This document shows positions 6,796 through 44,643 of a stretch of DNA of 64,000 nucleotides, in pieces. Numbering within the stretch: position 1 is the stretch's first letter; every line of letters starts with the position of its first letter. A model generated the notes under the pieces. It searched no databases. It had not been told where the DNA came from and was given only the letters and a program-made list of their open reading frames with translations. The translations under genes and the position numbers were made by a program. This DNA is from an uncultured Candidatus Melainabacteria bacterium (GTDB lineage: Bacteria > Cyanobacteriota > Vampirovibrionia > Gastranaerophilales > Gastranaerophilaceae), in the NCBI GenBank assembly GCA_947570135.1, contig CANOTP010000002.1, positions 62,001 through 126,000 on the forward strand. The letters run 5' to 3'.

Positions 6796-7806
6796 ATGAC
6801 AAAAAATATTAAACCGCTAAGAATAGCAGGTGTAGGATACAGTGTTCCAAACACTGTCTTAACTAATGATGATTTAACAAAATTGTATGAAACATCTGAT
6901 GAATGGATTTATACAAGAACAGGTATAAAAGAACGCAGAGTTGTTTCTGGTAATGAAAGTGCTGTGGACTTAGGTTATGAGGCAGCTAAAAAAGCTATTG
7001 AAAAATCAGGATTTAAAGCTGATGAAATTGATTGTGTAATCGCGGCATCATCCGCTCCGCCTCAATTATATCCTGCATTGGCTTGTAATATTCAGGCAAA
7101 ACTCGGTATTCCGAATTTTGTACCGTCATTTGATTTAACGGCTGCTTGTACAGGGTTAATCTATGCTTTGCAGGTTGCAAGAGGTTTGATTGGTACAGGA
7201 TTATATAAAAACATTTTGCTTGTTGCATCTGATAACAATTCAAGACTTGTAGATTGGGAAGATCGAGGAACATCAATACTTTTTGGTGACGGCGCAGGTG
7301 CAATGGTTGTAACCGAAGCTCAAGACGGGGTTGACGATATTTTATCGCTTGATGTTCGAGCAGACGGTGAGATTGGTCAATATATTTATTTGAATACTCC
7401 GGGTAAAAATTGTCCGCTTGTTGAACCGTGTGATGAACACGATTCAAAAATTCACATGGCAGGACGTGATGTTTACAAGTTCGTTGTAACTACTTTACCG
7501 AAATATGTTGATAAATGTATTGATGAAGCAGGTATGACTGCTGCTGATATTGATTATTTAATTCCTCATCAGGCAAATCAAAGAATTATTGAAGCTTTGC
7601 AGCAAAGACTTGAATATTCTGATGAAAAAGTTATTTCAAATATTAAATACTACGGAAATACATCGGCAGCATCTATTCCGATAGCGTTAGTTGAAGGTGT
7701 TGAGCAAGGTAAAATTAAACTCGGATCAACGGCAATTCTTTGCGGGTTCGGTGCAGGTATGACCTGGGGCGCTGCTGTAGTAAGACTTCGCGAAGGTATT
7801 TGCTAA
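6796..7806 (+). CDS. fabH: 3-oxoacyl-ACP synthase III
   Basis: It starts fatty-acid synthesis by condensing acetyl-CoA with malonyl-ACP. The thiolase-fold catalytic triad is intact: Cys in DLTAACTGLIYALQ, His in LIPHQANQRII, Asn in YYGNTSAASIP. The start IAGVGYSVPNTVLTNDDL, TSDEWIYTRTGIKERR and the end LCGFGAGMTWGAAVVR are textbook. Length 336 aa is normal. Translation starts after TAGGAATTAATT, 9 bases behind plsX. fabD, usually next, is displaced about 1.4 kb by two unrelated genes. Confidence 0.97.
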   Translation: MTKNIKPLRIAGVGYSVPNTVLTNDDLTKLYETSDEWIYTRTGIKERRVVSGNESAVDLGYEAAKKAIEKSGFKADEIDCVIAASSAPPQLYPALACNIQAKLGIPNFVPSFDLTAACTGLIYALQVARGLIGTGLYKNILLVASDNNSRLVDWEDRGTSILFGDGAGAMVVTEAQDGVDDILSLDVRADGEIGQYIYLNTPGKNCPLVEPCDEHDSKIHMAGRDVYKFVVTTLPKYVDKCIDEAGMTAADIDYLIPHQANQRIIEALQQRLEYSDEKVISNIKYYGNTSAASIPIALVEGVEQGKIKLGSTAILCGFGAGMTWGAAVVRLREGIC

Positions 7807-7824
7807 GATTAAGGAGATAAAAGT

Positions 7825-8569
7825 ATGAAAAAGCTTACTATGATTGGAATTTCGGGGGGGTAACTTTTTAGGCTCCTTAGGATTTACCTTGGCTGAGGTA
7901 TTAATCACCCTAGGGATTATCGGGGTGGTTGCGGCTATGACAATACCAAGCTTAATGGCTGCTCATAAAGCTCACAGACTTCGTGCGCAGTTTTTGAAGT
8001 CATATTCAACCGTTCAACAGGTGTTTAAACAAATGGAAGCGGATGATGTATCGTTAAATCCTACAGACTATAGTGATAAAAATTACGGAAGATTTTATAA
8101 AACTTTTAATAAATATCTTAAAGGTTCACTGGATTGCGGGGATTTAACAAGAAGAAATCAAACCCAAATGTGTTATAACTATTCAAAAGATACTACAGAC
8201 AAACCTTATCAAAATCTAAACGGTACTAATAATATTGCTTCAACTCTTTTTGATGACGGACAAATACTTTTGCCTGACGGAACACTTTTATTATTTGAAA
8301 ATCCGTCAAATTCTTCAAGTCCGCATGTATGGGTTCATGTTGATTTGAACGGTTACAAAAACCCTCCAAACCGTTGGGGATATGATTTATTTACGTTTCA
8401 ATTTTTAGACGGTGAACTTAGAACTATGGGTGATATTCAAACCAATTATAAAAACCATGATATTTATTGCAGTATGGCGAGCACAAATTCTTCTAACGGG
8501 ATTTCTTGTGCTAATAAAGCTAAAACAAATACCGATTATTTTAAATGGGTTGTTAAAAATGTCAAATAG
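7825..8569 (+). pseudogene. Type IV pilin-like protein, reading frame broken at a G7 tract
   Basis: A strong Shine-Dalgarno (AAGGAGATAAAAGT) leads to the ATG at 7825, giving MKKLTMIGISGG and then a TAA right after seven G (7854-7860). With one G fewer the frame runs on as NFLGSLG, the prepilin cleavage site G/FTLAEVLITLGIIGVVAAM, and about 200 more residues to 8569. The downstream part alone could only start at a TTG at 7844 without a good Shine-Dalgarno. The C-terminal region resembles other secreted pseudopilins (VWVHVDLNGYKNPPNRWGYD, also seen in the gene at 43909). It is phase-variable, a pseudogene, or carries a homopolymer error. Convergent with the next gene, 2 bases apart. Confidence 0.8.
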
Positions 8570-8571
8570 GC

Positions 8572-9045
8572 TTAAATAATATATTCACAATCTCTAAAGA
8601 CTTTATCTTTACTTAAAGCTGCACGGGTATCAAGACTGTTAATTTCAGCTAAATACGCATAATTATTCACAAATAAATCTTCAGGAGCTGATTTTGATTT
8701 TTCCAGGTGAGTTAAAAACTTAATAATTTTAGTATTTTCTTTATCTTCTTTTGCAAACAGTCTTACAAGTTTTGCAAGTTTTTCTGCCATTTTTTCGGGA
8801 GTCATTTTAATTAGTGTTTCTAAGCATTTATCTGATAATCCCAGTGAATGTTCAAGACCGTTTTGGCTTGCAGAATATATTGATACACCATCGGGATATT
8901 CGTTGACATGAAGAGTATAATTCAGTTTAGGGGTTTTTTGTTCAAGAATTGCGCCTGCCTGCTGCCATAGTTTAAGGTTTGTTTTAACACCTCTCAGGCT
9001 TAGGTTTGCTGTAAACGGGGTTTGATTATTGTTCACTGTTAACAT
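8572..9045 (-). CDS. Hypothetical protein, 157 aa
   Basis: Unrecognised. The N terminus (MLTVNNNQTPFTANLSLRGV) is followed by a helical, Lys-rich body (MTPEKMAEKLAKLVRLFAKED, IIKFLTHLEKSKSAPEDLF). There is no signal peptide or membrane segment. A good Shine-Dalgarno (AAGGAG) precedes the ATG. It faces the opposite way between fabH and fabD, so it was probably inserted with the pseudopilin into the fab cluster. No function is assigned. Confidence 0.7.
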   Translation of the reverse strand: MLTVNNNQTPFTANLSLRGVKTNLKLWQQAGAILEQKTPKLNYTLHVNEYPDGVSIYSASQNGLEHSLGLSDKCLETLIKMTPEKMAEKLAKLVRLFAKEDKENTKIIKFLTHLEKSKSAPEDLFVNNYAYLAEINSLDTRAALSKDKVFRDCEYII

Positions 9046-9209: not shown

Positions 9210-10157
9210 ATGACTAAAAAAATAGCATTCGTTTTCCCGGGGCAGGGTTCTCAATCTGTCGGTATGGGGAAAGATTTGTATGAAAACTTTGAGGCTGCAA
9301 AAAATGTTTTTGATACTGCTGATAAAGTTTTAGGAAAAAGTATTACAACAATTTGTTTTGAAGGACCTGATGAAGATTTGAAACAAACGGTTAACACACA
9401 GCCTTCAATTGTGACAATGTCGATTGCCGCGTTGGAAGCTTTTAAATCACAACTTGATATTACACCTTACGCTACGGCAGGTCATTCTTTAGGTGAATAC
9501 TGCGCGATGTATTGTTCAGGCGTAATGGATTTGGAAACAACCTTAAAAGCTATTCAAAAAAGAGCTGATCTTATGGGAGCAACAAAGGGCGGCGCTATGG
9601 CTGCTGTTTTAAATGCACCTGAAGGAAGTTTAGATAAAGCAATAAAAGAAGCATCAAGCGTTGGTTATGTTGATGTGGCAAATTATAATTCACCTGCTCA
9701 GGTGGTTATTACAGGTGATGAAGCTGCTGTAGCTAAAGCAGGAGAATTACTGTCAGCAGCGGGAGCAAGAAGAGTTGTTCCGCTTGCCGTTTCAGGTGCT
9801 TTTCACTCTAAGTTTATGGAAAATGCAGGAAATGAATTTGCAGGCTTTGTTTCAGAATTAAGCTTAAATGATGCAAAAGTTCCTGTATATACAAATGTTG
9901 ATGCTAATGCAACAATTTCAAGCAGTGATTTTGTTGAAAAAATGCCTAAACAAATTTATTCATCCGTTCACTGGACTCAAACCATTGAAAATATGGCAGG
10001 TGAAGGTGTTGATACAATTATTGAAATCGGTCCGGGTAAGGTTTTATCAGGATTGGTTAAGAAAATCAACTCAGATATTAAAACATACAATATTTATGAT
10101 AAAGAATCATTAGAAAATACGCTTAGCGCTTTAAAAGAACAGTTAACTTCAGTTTAA
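9210..10157 (+). CDS. fabD: Malonyl-CoA:ACP transacylase
   Basis: It loads malonyl groups onto ACP. The GQGSQ loop (FVFPGQGSQSVGMG) and the nucleophile motif TAGHSLGEYCAM (GHSLG) are present. So are SGAFHSKFM with the catalytic His and the C-terminal IEIGPGKVLSGLVKK. I chose the ATG at 9210, which has GAGGGA 9 bases upstream, over an in-frame TTG at 9189. Length 315 aa is normal. fabG follows after 21 bases in the same direction. Confidence 0.97.
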   Translation: MTKKIAFVFPGQGSQSVGMGKDLYENFEAAKNVFDTADKVLGKSITTICFEGPDEDLKQTVNTQPSIVTMSIAALEAFKSQLDITPYATAGHSLGEYCAMYCSGVMDLETTLKAIQKRADLMGATKGGAMAAVLNAPEGSLDKAIKEASSVGYVDVANYNSPAQVVITGDEAAVAKAGELLSAAGARRVVPLAVSGAFHSKFMENAGNEFAGFVSELSLNDAKVPVYTNVDANATISSSDFVEKMPKQIYSSVHWTQTIENMAGEGVDTIIEIGPGKVLSGLVKKINSDIKTYNIYDKESLENTLSALKEQLTSV

Positions 10158-23235: not shown

Positions 23236-23847
23236 ATGATTGATTTTCTTAAAAAGTATGTAGATTTTAATTTCAAATCAACATCTTTATTTATTGTGCT
23301 TACTTTAGCAGCGATTTTTGGGTTAAAACTTTGCGGAGTGAATGAAATTCCTGAAAACAGTTTACTTGAAAATACCCAACTGATTGTGTTAGCGGGGGGG
23401 GGACTTTATTGCTTGATATCTAAGAGTGACAAAGAATATAAACCGATTAATATATTCTTTGCATTGGTAATCTTCTTGCTTGCAATGAGAGAAATCAGTT
23501 ATGGAAGAGTATTTTTTGCACAAATCCCGGGGACAAATGATTTTTATCACTGGTCACATTATAAATACGGATATTTGGCACATGTTATTATCGGAATTTA
23601 TATTGCCGGAGCTTTTGTTTATGCGCTTTGTAAAAAAGTTTTTGTAAAGATTTGGGAAGTCTTACAGAAAACACAATTCCCGTTTTGGAATGTGTTGTTG
23701 TTATTAACAGTGATTCCAGTACAAATTCTTGCAGAAAAACGTTTTCATTCGACATTAGTAGAAGAAACAGTTGAATTGTTGATGTATTGCTTAATTGTAT
23801 ATATGGTAGTAATATATAATCAACATTTGAAAAAGAGTGAGGGGTAA
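23236..23847 (+). CDS. Integral membrane protein, 203 aa, with an internal G9 tract
   Basis: Five to six hydrophobic helices (SLFIVLTLAAIFGLKLCG, IFFALVIFLLAMREISYG, YLAHVIIGIYIAGAFVYALC, FWNVLLLLTVIPVQILAEKR, VEETVELLMYCLIVYMVVIY). Conserved-looking polar residues sit inside or next to helices (E and R in LAMREISYGR; H in DFYHWSHYKYG; EE in HSTLVEETVE). I do not recognise the family. The second helix contains nine consecutive G (23394-23402, coding AGGG), unusual in this AT-rich DNA. AAAGGGG precedes the ATG. Confidence 0.65.
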   Translation: MIDFLKKYVDFNFKSTSLFIVLTLAAIFGLKLCGVNEIPENSLLENTQLIVLAGGGLYCLISKSDKEYKPINIFFALVIFLLAMREISYGRVFFAQIPGTNDFYHWSHYKYGYLAHVIIGIYIAGAFVYALCKKVFVKIWEVLQKTQFPFWNVLLLLTVIPVQILAEKRFHSTLVEETVELLMYCLIVYMVVIYNQHLKKSEG

Positions 23848-43908: not shown

Positions 43909-44643
43909 TTATCTAAACCCTGCAGATTCTTTCATCATTTCTTTTGTTGTTTTACCTGTTCCATTAATAAAACATTTTCTGTAAAAGTCATCAGTAAGGT
44001 TTGGTTGTGTAAAATAAACTTCTTTGACATAAGTTTTATTGTTAACAATTGCTGTTTCATGTACGGATAGTGAAAGCGGGAAAATATCTTGTCCCCATTT
44101 GTTAGGACCTTTACGTCCGTTAATATCTATCGCCATTCGTCCCGGGAAATCGCTTTGGTTTGGTGTATGATAAGTCATAAATATCATACTGTTATCAAAT
44201 ACATAAGCTCGTTTTGCTTTCTTAAAATCATAAGAAGAACAGCCTGAAGCAGGGTAGTTGTTTGGAATACAACCTTCAGTTATAGGATTGTTTTCACAAG
44301 AATGAGTTGCACCCATTGCTCTTGTAAAATCATGAATAAACTTATTACATTCAACAGTTGCATCAGAGACGGATTTTTTTTTCATTCTTAACCCTTGTTC
44401 ATCAATATCATCAAAAGGGACTGTTCCATAATAACAAGCATAGACACTTCCTCTGTCAAACTGAATACTTTTTAGGGTAGCCTCCATTTTGGCATAAGCT
44501 GAACGAAATTCGGCAAGCCTTGCGCGTTGCTGAACTGAAGCTCCTATTGTTGACAGGGTTAATGTTGCCAAAGCCCCGATTAAAGTAAGCGTAATCATTA
44601 CTTCAGAAAGCGTAAATCCTGATTTTTTTAATTTAAAATTCAT
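43909..44643 (-). CDS. Type IV pilin-like (pseudopilin) protein, 244 aa
   Basis: The class III signal peptide MNFKLKKSG/FTLSEVMITL has Gly-1, Phe+1 and Glu+5 for prepilin peptidase, followed by a hydrophobic helix (TLIGALATLTLSTIG). The large C-terminal domain has six cysteines in ACYYG, VECNKF, HSCENN, EGCIPN, SGCSSY and RKCFIN. It shares RMAIDINGRKGPNKWGQDIF with the VHVDLNGYKNPPNRWGYDLF block of the pseudopilin at 7825, so the two are paralogues. Probably a minor pilin or type II secretion-like fibre component. Confidence 0.85.
   Translation of the reverse strand: MNFKLKKSGFTLSEVMITLTLIGALATLTLSTIGASVQQRARLAEFRSAYAKMEATLKSIQFDRGSVYACYYGTVPFDDIDEQGLRMKKKSVSDATVECNKFIHDFTRAMGATHSCENNPITEGCIPNNYPASGCSSYDFKKAKRAYVFDNSMIFMTYHTPNQSDFPGRMAIDINGRKGPNKWGQDIFPLSLSVHETAIVNNKTYVKEVYFTQPNLTDDFYRKCFINGTGKTTKEMMKESAGFR

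Follow-up and report, generated by a model that had tools for sequence, protein, structure and literature searches.

A poly-G leader as a probable default-OFF switch of a type IV pilin-like gene in a Gastranaerophilales bacterium

In the 64,000-nucleotide stretch of DNA analyzed here (the window), an intact type IV pilin-like gene stands one reading frame away from its own start codon, from which it is separated by a run of seven G residues. The gene is probably the OFF copy of a default-OFF, slipped-strand ON/OFF (phase-variable) pilin-like gene. Nor is it a lone case of damage: dozens of prepilins of the same genome stand behind one portable, mostly out-of-frame start segment, and the gene belongs to this large and probably switchable set. 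Under the slipped-strand reading, translation would begin at ATG 7825 and, with some tract lengths, the ribosome would be carried through a short linker into the prepilin, whereas with other lengths it would stop within a few codons. Occasional slippage of DNA polymerase along the tract in living cells would reversibly alter tract length and so switch the gene, and the pilin would be made by ON cells. The portable leader, i.e., Shine-Dalgarno sequence, ATG, about nine codons and G tract, would have been joined to many different pilin bodies, and therefore one kind of switch would gate about one third of the host prepilins. The consensus state would be OFF, with a given pilin expressed by a minority of cells.

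The gene lies on the forward strand downstream of fabH (beta-ketoacyl-ACP synthase III, 6796-7806, + strand). The Shine-Dalgarno AAGGAG (7811-7816, +), 4 nt past the fabH stop, forms the 5′ end of the portable leader module. The leader ORF (7825-7863, +) consists of the ATG at 7825-7827 and 11 codons (MKKLTMIGISGG) followed by TAA at 7861-7863, and corresponds to the charged start of a prepilin leader. The putative switch, a G7 tract (7854-7860, +), lies 29 nt past the ATG, the spacing seen in the 31 canonical leaders of the host genome. It is followed by a linker to the cleavage site (7861-7879, +), which includes the conserved 3′ end of the leader module and is open in the pilin frame, and by the prepilin body (7880-8569, +), which has a G/FTLAEV cleavage motif and a hydrophobic helix. 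The prepilin motif GFTLAEVLITLG begins at 7880, in a frame one off the leader ORF. A preceding reading of the letters and reading frames (the sequence-only reading) had described the Shine-Dalgarno, the ATG at 7825, twelve codons, seven G and a TAA, all of which are confirmed to the base. Its claim of an intact prepilin one frame away also holds, since the pilin frame is open up to a stop ending at 8569 and the locus needs the loss of one nucleotide (-1); the domain of some 200 residues that it announced is intact and measures 229 aa.

The window prepilin scores above the cut-off of the NCBI prepilin model TIGR02532 (18.0 bits against 16.3) and matches N_methyl in the genome search (22.0 bits, cut-off 21.2); hmmscan at 1e-3 returned no Pfam match. 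A class III signal is present, with a charged leader, the G/F cleavage site, E5 and a hydrophobic helix. The structure model of the body (mean pLDDT 84.4) predicts a helix at residues 4-54 followed by an alpha/beta head, with confidence below 50 for residues 6-18, and a fold search with this model found no PDB chain at E ≤ 0.001, leaving a pilin head without support. Fifteen relatives of the body occur in named records, 11 from Candidatus Melainabacteria or Gastranaerophilales, two from one Muribaculaceae-labelled MAG and two from entries named “Bacterium isolate.” Runs of G6 are unremarkable in the window (7 overlapping matches against 5.1 expected). By the standard used for contingency genes, with a threshold of at least seven G/C for contingency tracts (PMC6321876), the window gene carries a run of at least seven G near its start and inside a reading frame, and the length of this tract sets whether a short peptide or an intact full protein is encoded. 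Two further loci of the window may be recorded here: a second prepilin, without a tract, at 44557-44628 on the - strand (N_methyl match C2:106557-106628), and an in-frame G9 run at 23394-23402 inside a 203-aa ORF (23236-23847) with no NCBIfam match, which could be another switchable gene, in the ON state.

Downstream of the prepilin lies fabD (ACP S-malonyltransferase, 9210-10157, +), and the site between fabH and fabD differs among relatives. The genomes G034 and G043 have a prepilin between the two genes, with a leader that lacks the tract; in G044 and G011, according to BLAST coordinates, fabD comes directly after fabH and the pilin is absent, so that the two genes are nearly adjacent without a pilin in at least two relatives. 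Orthology at this site was considered as a strain comparison and rejected, as the window body is no closer to the syntenic body of G034 (65%) than to other paralogs (69%). Between prepilin and fabD the window also has a 157-aa ORF without NCBIfam match, antisense to the operon (8572-9045, - strand), and G034 and G043 have a different - strand ORF (149 or 108 aa), there between fabH and the prepilin.

The host genome (1.9 Mb in 16 contigs) contains 93 N_methyl matches and about 108 prepilin ORFs, the latter counted in stretches around the N_methyl matches and around all tracts of at least seven G. A run of at least six G lies within 260 nt upstream of 35 of these 108 ORFs, and a run of at least seven upstream of 32. 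Over both strands, 45 runs of at least seven G were found where a first-order model of the window composition predicts about 22, and 41 runs of at least eight where it predicts 4.3; 37 of the 45 sit in such leaders when counted by eye, and 40 by an automatic rule. One G8 run elsewhere lies inside a reading frame at C4:192694 (CPLRCKYCHNPDSW), which by eye we take to resemble a radical-SAM activating enzyme. The tract-bearing host prepilins are distributed 34 to 1 between the + and - strands, against 26 to 47 for plain prepilins (Fisher p 1.9e-10). The + strand looks like the leading strand by 4-fold GC skew in contigs C1-C5, C10 and C15, with values near zero in C8 and C9 and no measurable skew in C6 and C12; the relative G243 gave no comparable leading-strand signal in its GC skew, and its tract loci are strand-consistent within most contigs. 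As proof of a replication effect, the strand bias was set aside.

Thirty-one host leaders constitute one conserved module of about 65 nt, with the start codon exactly 29 nt ahead of the tract. Their conservation profile starts at the Shine-Dalgarno AAGGAG (7811-7816 in the window): pairwise identity is at background upstream of it (0.28-0.31 at -100 to -61), reaches 0.67-0.87 over the Shine-Dalgarno and start and 0.59-0.75 in the rest of the leader, and peaks at 0.96 in the first five bases 3′ of the tract. It falls to 0.35-0.45 in the linker, returns to 0.72-0.80 in the N-terminal helix and drops to 0.30 further down the bodies. In a tree of 85 bodies trimmed of their N-terminal 28 residues, genes with a tract are scattered among plain ones with 22 state changes, at least nine of which are forced by well-supported branches; shuffling gave a mean of 27.1, and 18 of 500 shuffles were as low. 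Because identity is at background beyond the Shine-Dalgarno and again further down the bodies, and tract-bearing genes are mixed among plain ones on the tree, the leader is, by its sequence, a module joined to many pilin lineages and unrelated bodies. Tract lengths in the 31 canonical leaders are G8 in 25, G9 in four and G7 in two, one of them the window gene, whose G7 is thus an uncommon variant of a G8 norm. Interspersed repeat-like segments occur between tract and cleavage site, for instance at C1:333947, C3:77606 and C4:107506 of the host and at L016, L136 and L140 (translated, e.g., as VMLNLIQHLS..RFRVKHGMT); they are in the pilin frame and stop-free, and produce leaders of up to about 90 residues. 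Two other arrangements were discarded. An anti-Shine-Dalgarno hairpin suggested by eye, pairing AAGGAG with CTCCTT 3′ of the tract, has mean folding z values near 0 in seven genomes, and the Shine-Dalgarno was paired in 8 of 30 host leaders on folding. Initiation behind the tract, with the G run as Shine-Dalgarno, finds on inspection by eye neither a nearby start codon nor a charged leader in the canonical leaders.

Among the 33 host loci with a start and the motif, a count that omits tracts without the motif, 24 need one additional nucleotide (+1) to join leader and body, seven, including the window gene, need -1 (three of the seven with a different leader) and two are in frame. The gene had been described as caught in the OFF state; it is indeed out of frame, yet with two of 33 loci in frame this is the usual state of the whole set and no snapshot. 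The interrupted-tract leaders at C3:225998, C4:129022 and C9:21358 look locked OFF, and their bodies of 119-251 aa are still open.

The arrangement extends well beyond the host. A search pattern of G7, a non-G base, 3-33 bases and codons for F-T-L-[AST]-E matches 65 of 288 genomes of the family and 15 of its 41 genera, with up to 72 loci per genome, and the reversed control pattern has zero matches across the same 288 genomes. At the order level 59 of 241 genomes match, and only 2 of 22 outside the family. For the larger sets, 30 stretches of the 72 loci of G243, 30 of the 48 of G160/G288 and 30 of the 41 of G337 were fetched. In a family set of 109 loci, from which three of 112 were dropped for an unrecognizable start, tracts range from G7 to G14; 17 loci are in frame, 63 need -1 and 29 need +1. 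None of the 109 tract-to-motif linkers contains a stop, and therefore the bodies appear to be read across the tract. Host and family together, limited to loci that have a start plus a motif within 280 nt and come from genomes other than G337, give 213 loci (26 in frame, 72 needing -1 and 115 needing +1), which are not independent because the loci of one genome are related. In G243, the pilin frame lacks any start codon 5′ of the tract in 28 of 32 loci. The frames on both sides of the tract are kept despite linkers and leaders of very different lengths. Since a strong Shine-Dalgarno and start are present, the pilin frame is mostly startless and both frames are kept, the body would be read through the tract at least sometimes, and a slipped-strand change in the DNA is the best-known route for this. 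At L019 (Zag_111), two prepilins lie side by side with tracts of G10 and G12 in a different leader, and their frames are off in the same direction.

Evidence on tract length, which comes from one genome per species, points in two directions. Six of nine locus pairs with 50-nt flanks at least 90% identical differ in tract length; in G160, for instance, one of two copies with identical flanks is in frame with G11 and the other out of frame with G10, and the copies of G086 have G9, G10 or G11, with 6 of 11 in frame. In G243, by contrast, the tract is G10 in 31 of 32 loci (one locus left out), all 31 of which need +1 with leaders of 19-85 nt and linkers of 20-112 nt, and every locus needs -1 in G263 (12/12), G180 (6/6) and G162 (4/4). 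When linkers were permuted among loci, the observed agreement was equalled 0, 5, 13 and 129 times in 5000 for G243, G160, G263 and G163, respectively; in ten other genomes it was reached in at least 818 of 5000 permutations, which is uninformative. Because 31 of 32 loci need +1 in G243 and 12 of 12 need -1 in G263, the frames within a genome, as compared in these assemblies, are not random, and lineages keep to an offset of their own. A comparison of the sister species G243 and G337 yielded 12 syntenic pairs, 11 with both tracts readable, and 10 of the 11 have G10 in both. Seven of these ten have an alignable leader or linker and the other three share flanks only; the eleventh pair (L365/L286) has G9 and G10 with unlike leaders, and an N gap interrupts the twelfth (L364) at its tract. 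G337 itself has 25 loci needing +1, three in frame, two needing -1 and three without a start, where the three in-frame rows and one +1 row cross an N gap and hence are no evidence; N gaps lie at, or within 3 nt of, the tracts of three G337 loci. The phase switch proposed by the sequence-only reading therefore stands in part: the tract, the intact body, the length differences between close copies and the 65 of 288 family genomes fit ON/OFF slippage, while the conservation of tract length between sister species is unpredicted by simple hypermutation. In-frame copies (26 of 213 loci, and 1 of 20 genomes with a single analyzed locus) are too rare for a free switch, and equal lengths in 10 of 11 readable sister-species pairs speak against classic hypermutation. 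The host genome encodes MutS, which is compatible with slippage yet leaves a high rate unexplained.

Fixed lengths and offsets of this kind fit programmed recoding better than a slipped-strand switch. Ribosomal frameshifting or RNA-polymerase slippage at a fixed out-of-frame tract would then yield a little pilin from every gene at a constant level, and low-level frameshifting on seven G residues has been described (PMC5009743). The house offset per lineage despite leaders of many lengths, the loss of frame agreement in G243, G160 and G263 when linkers are permuted, and the equal tract lengths of the G243/G337 ortholog pairs all favor such a mechanism, which we nevertheless consider unlikely, if deserving of serious attention. 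The needed direction differs by lineage (+1 in g1 and g7, -1 in g10 and g41), tracts reach G14, far beyond a slippery heptamer, and no RNA structure was found beside the tract, with mean fold z values of -0.74 to 0.52 in seven genomes. In addition, the close-copy pairs that differ do so by one G, in-frame copies with intact bodies occur, and shared descent of the leaders can account for part of the frame agreement. It is improbable that the tract serves chiefly as a recombination hinge, where short-patch gene conversion exchanges leaders with one of its junctions at the G run, and that the effect on the frame is a by-product. The leaders are modular, and at L360/L305 and L358/L302 the segment from the Shine-Dalgarno or mid-leader up to the tract has been replaced, whereas identity remains at 17-20 of 20 across the tract and the 200 nt that follow; a hinge, however, leaves the retention of frame on both sides and the avoidance of in-frame copies unexplained, and is compatible with a switch rather than an alternative to it.

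Ordinary decay, under which the window gene and its sisters would be frameshifted pseudogenes, is very improbable. Broken copies do exist, with bodies of 68 aa at C2:227986 and 44 aa at C1:328914 and a stop in the leader at C9:32069, but bodies of at least 213 aa are retained in 21 of the 22 host G8 loci needing +1 (the exception, C4:49222, has 164), linkers are stop-free for up to 88 codons, and the pattern is maintained across 15 genera. Least credible, and highly improbable, is an error of assembly or homopolymer calling. Contig ends and N gaps coincide with tracts in the host and in G337: the end of C2 and the start of C15 share the same 55 bases, beginning with G8 where C2 itself reads G9, the end of C15 and the start of C5 share 55 bases ending in G8, and a leader 28-mer occurs only at these two breaks. 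C1 (G8) and C3 (G9) likewise end in a common 55-mer, with no other occurrence by 30-mer search. The C2/C15 and C15/C5 breaks presumably reflect mixed G8 and G9 reads, which would sever an assembly graph at just such points and would fit the slipped-strand switch, and a repeat tangle could contribute to contig breaks at tracts. Against an error, one and the same assembly reads G8 at 25 loci beside G7 and G9 at others, the offsets run in both directions across genomes, and the 55-nt overlaps suggest a short-read assembly. In short-read assemblies homopolymer runs of 7-8 are normally read well.

Campylobacter contingency tracts are spread over many gene families, whereas the tracts described here are concentrated on one family with one leader. 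The two systems share in-frame tracts of at least seven G, an AT-rich genome and frameshift ON/OFF control (PMC6321876), and C. jejuni NCTC11168 is reported to have 29 loci with at least seven G/C (PMC4965091). The sequence-only reading had drawn its parallel with Campylobacter and Helicobacter; as a statement about kinship this falls away, for the host belongs to the Melainabacteria/Gastranaerophilales and is no relative of those genera. In Neisseria, pilC and pilE/pilS likewise provide a pilus-related gene with an in-frame G/C tract and a pilin sequence that is also shuffled by recombination, but PilC is an accessory protein and not a pilin, and the available portion of that source does not mention a portable tract leader (PMC5953494). 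The closest proven case is the G-tract slippage switch of the sortase-dependent pili of Bifidobacterium breve (bbr_0113, bbr_1889; PMC9187656), also a gut commensal with a surface fiber, an intragenic G tract (G10/G11 there), an out-of-frame annotated state, a second ORF without an active start and, there, a productive length in the minority (PMC9187656). At one B. breve pilus locus in culture, the out-of-frame length G10 made up 93.4% and the productive G9 6.5%, and productive lengths were enriched in mice (PMC9187656); by analogy, a consensus can be stably out of frame and still go along with a minority that functions. Unlike the two loci and sortase pili of B. breve, where the tract is part of each gene (PMC9187656), the present system comprises dozens of loci and type IV prepilins, with a portable leader common to unrelated bodies. 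The pilus assembly machinery (PilB, PilC, PilD) has been reported in a relative (PMC5877343).

Phase variation by G runs is itself well known. In the open-licence literature, no description was found of one movable tract leader that many pilins share and that gates a third of the prepilins in a genome of this lineage, nor any report of phase variation of pilins in Gastranaerophilales or Cyanobacteriota; for Melainabacteria, the match on phase variation concerns flagellins, to judge by its title. Beyond the slipped-strand switch proposed for the window gene, a wider and only tentative possibility is that Gastranaerophilales-type gut bacteria possess a portable default-OFF “gate.” Short-patch recombination with a junction at the tract would place copies of the Shine-Dalgarno-ATG-G-tract leader in front of unrelated pilin bodies, and tract length would be kept one base away from the open frame. 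Slippage or recoding would then produce each of the 30-70 pilins only seldom or in traces, and the whole would act as a modular gate of expression instead of a collection of independently phase-variable genes. If such frame gating is real, a common gut lineage for which the literature searched describes no phase variation would have one of the largest frame-gated surface-gene sets, all of one kind, as a genome of 2.2 Mb can contain 72 loci, compared with 29 tracts of every kind in C. jejuni NCTC11168 (PMC4965091). Gene callers would miss such pilins or assign them a wrong start. The conserved OFF-by-one state also poses the question of whether a fixed out-of-frame G run is a mutational switch or a programmed recoding site.
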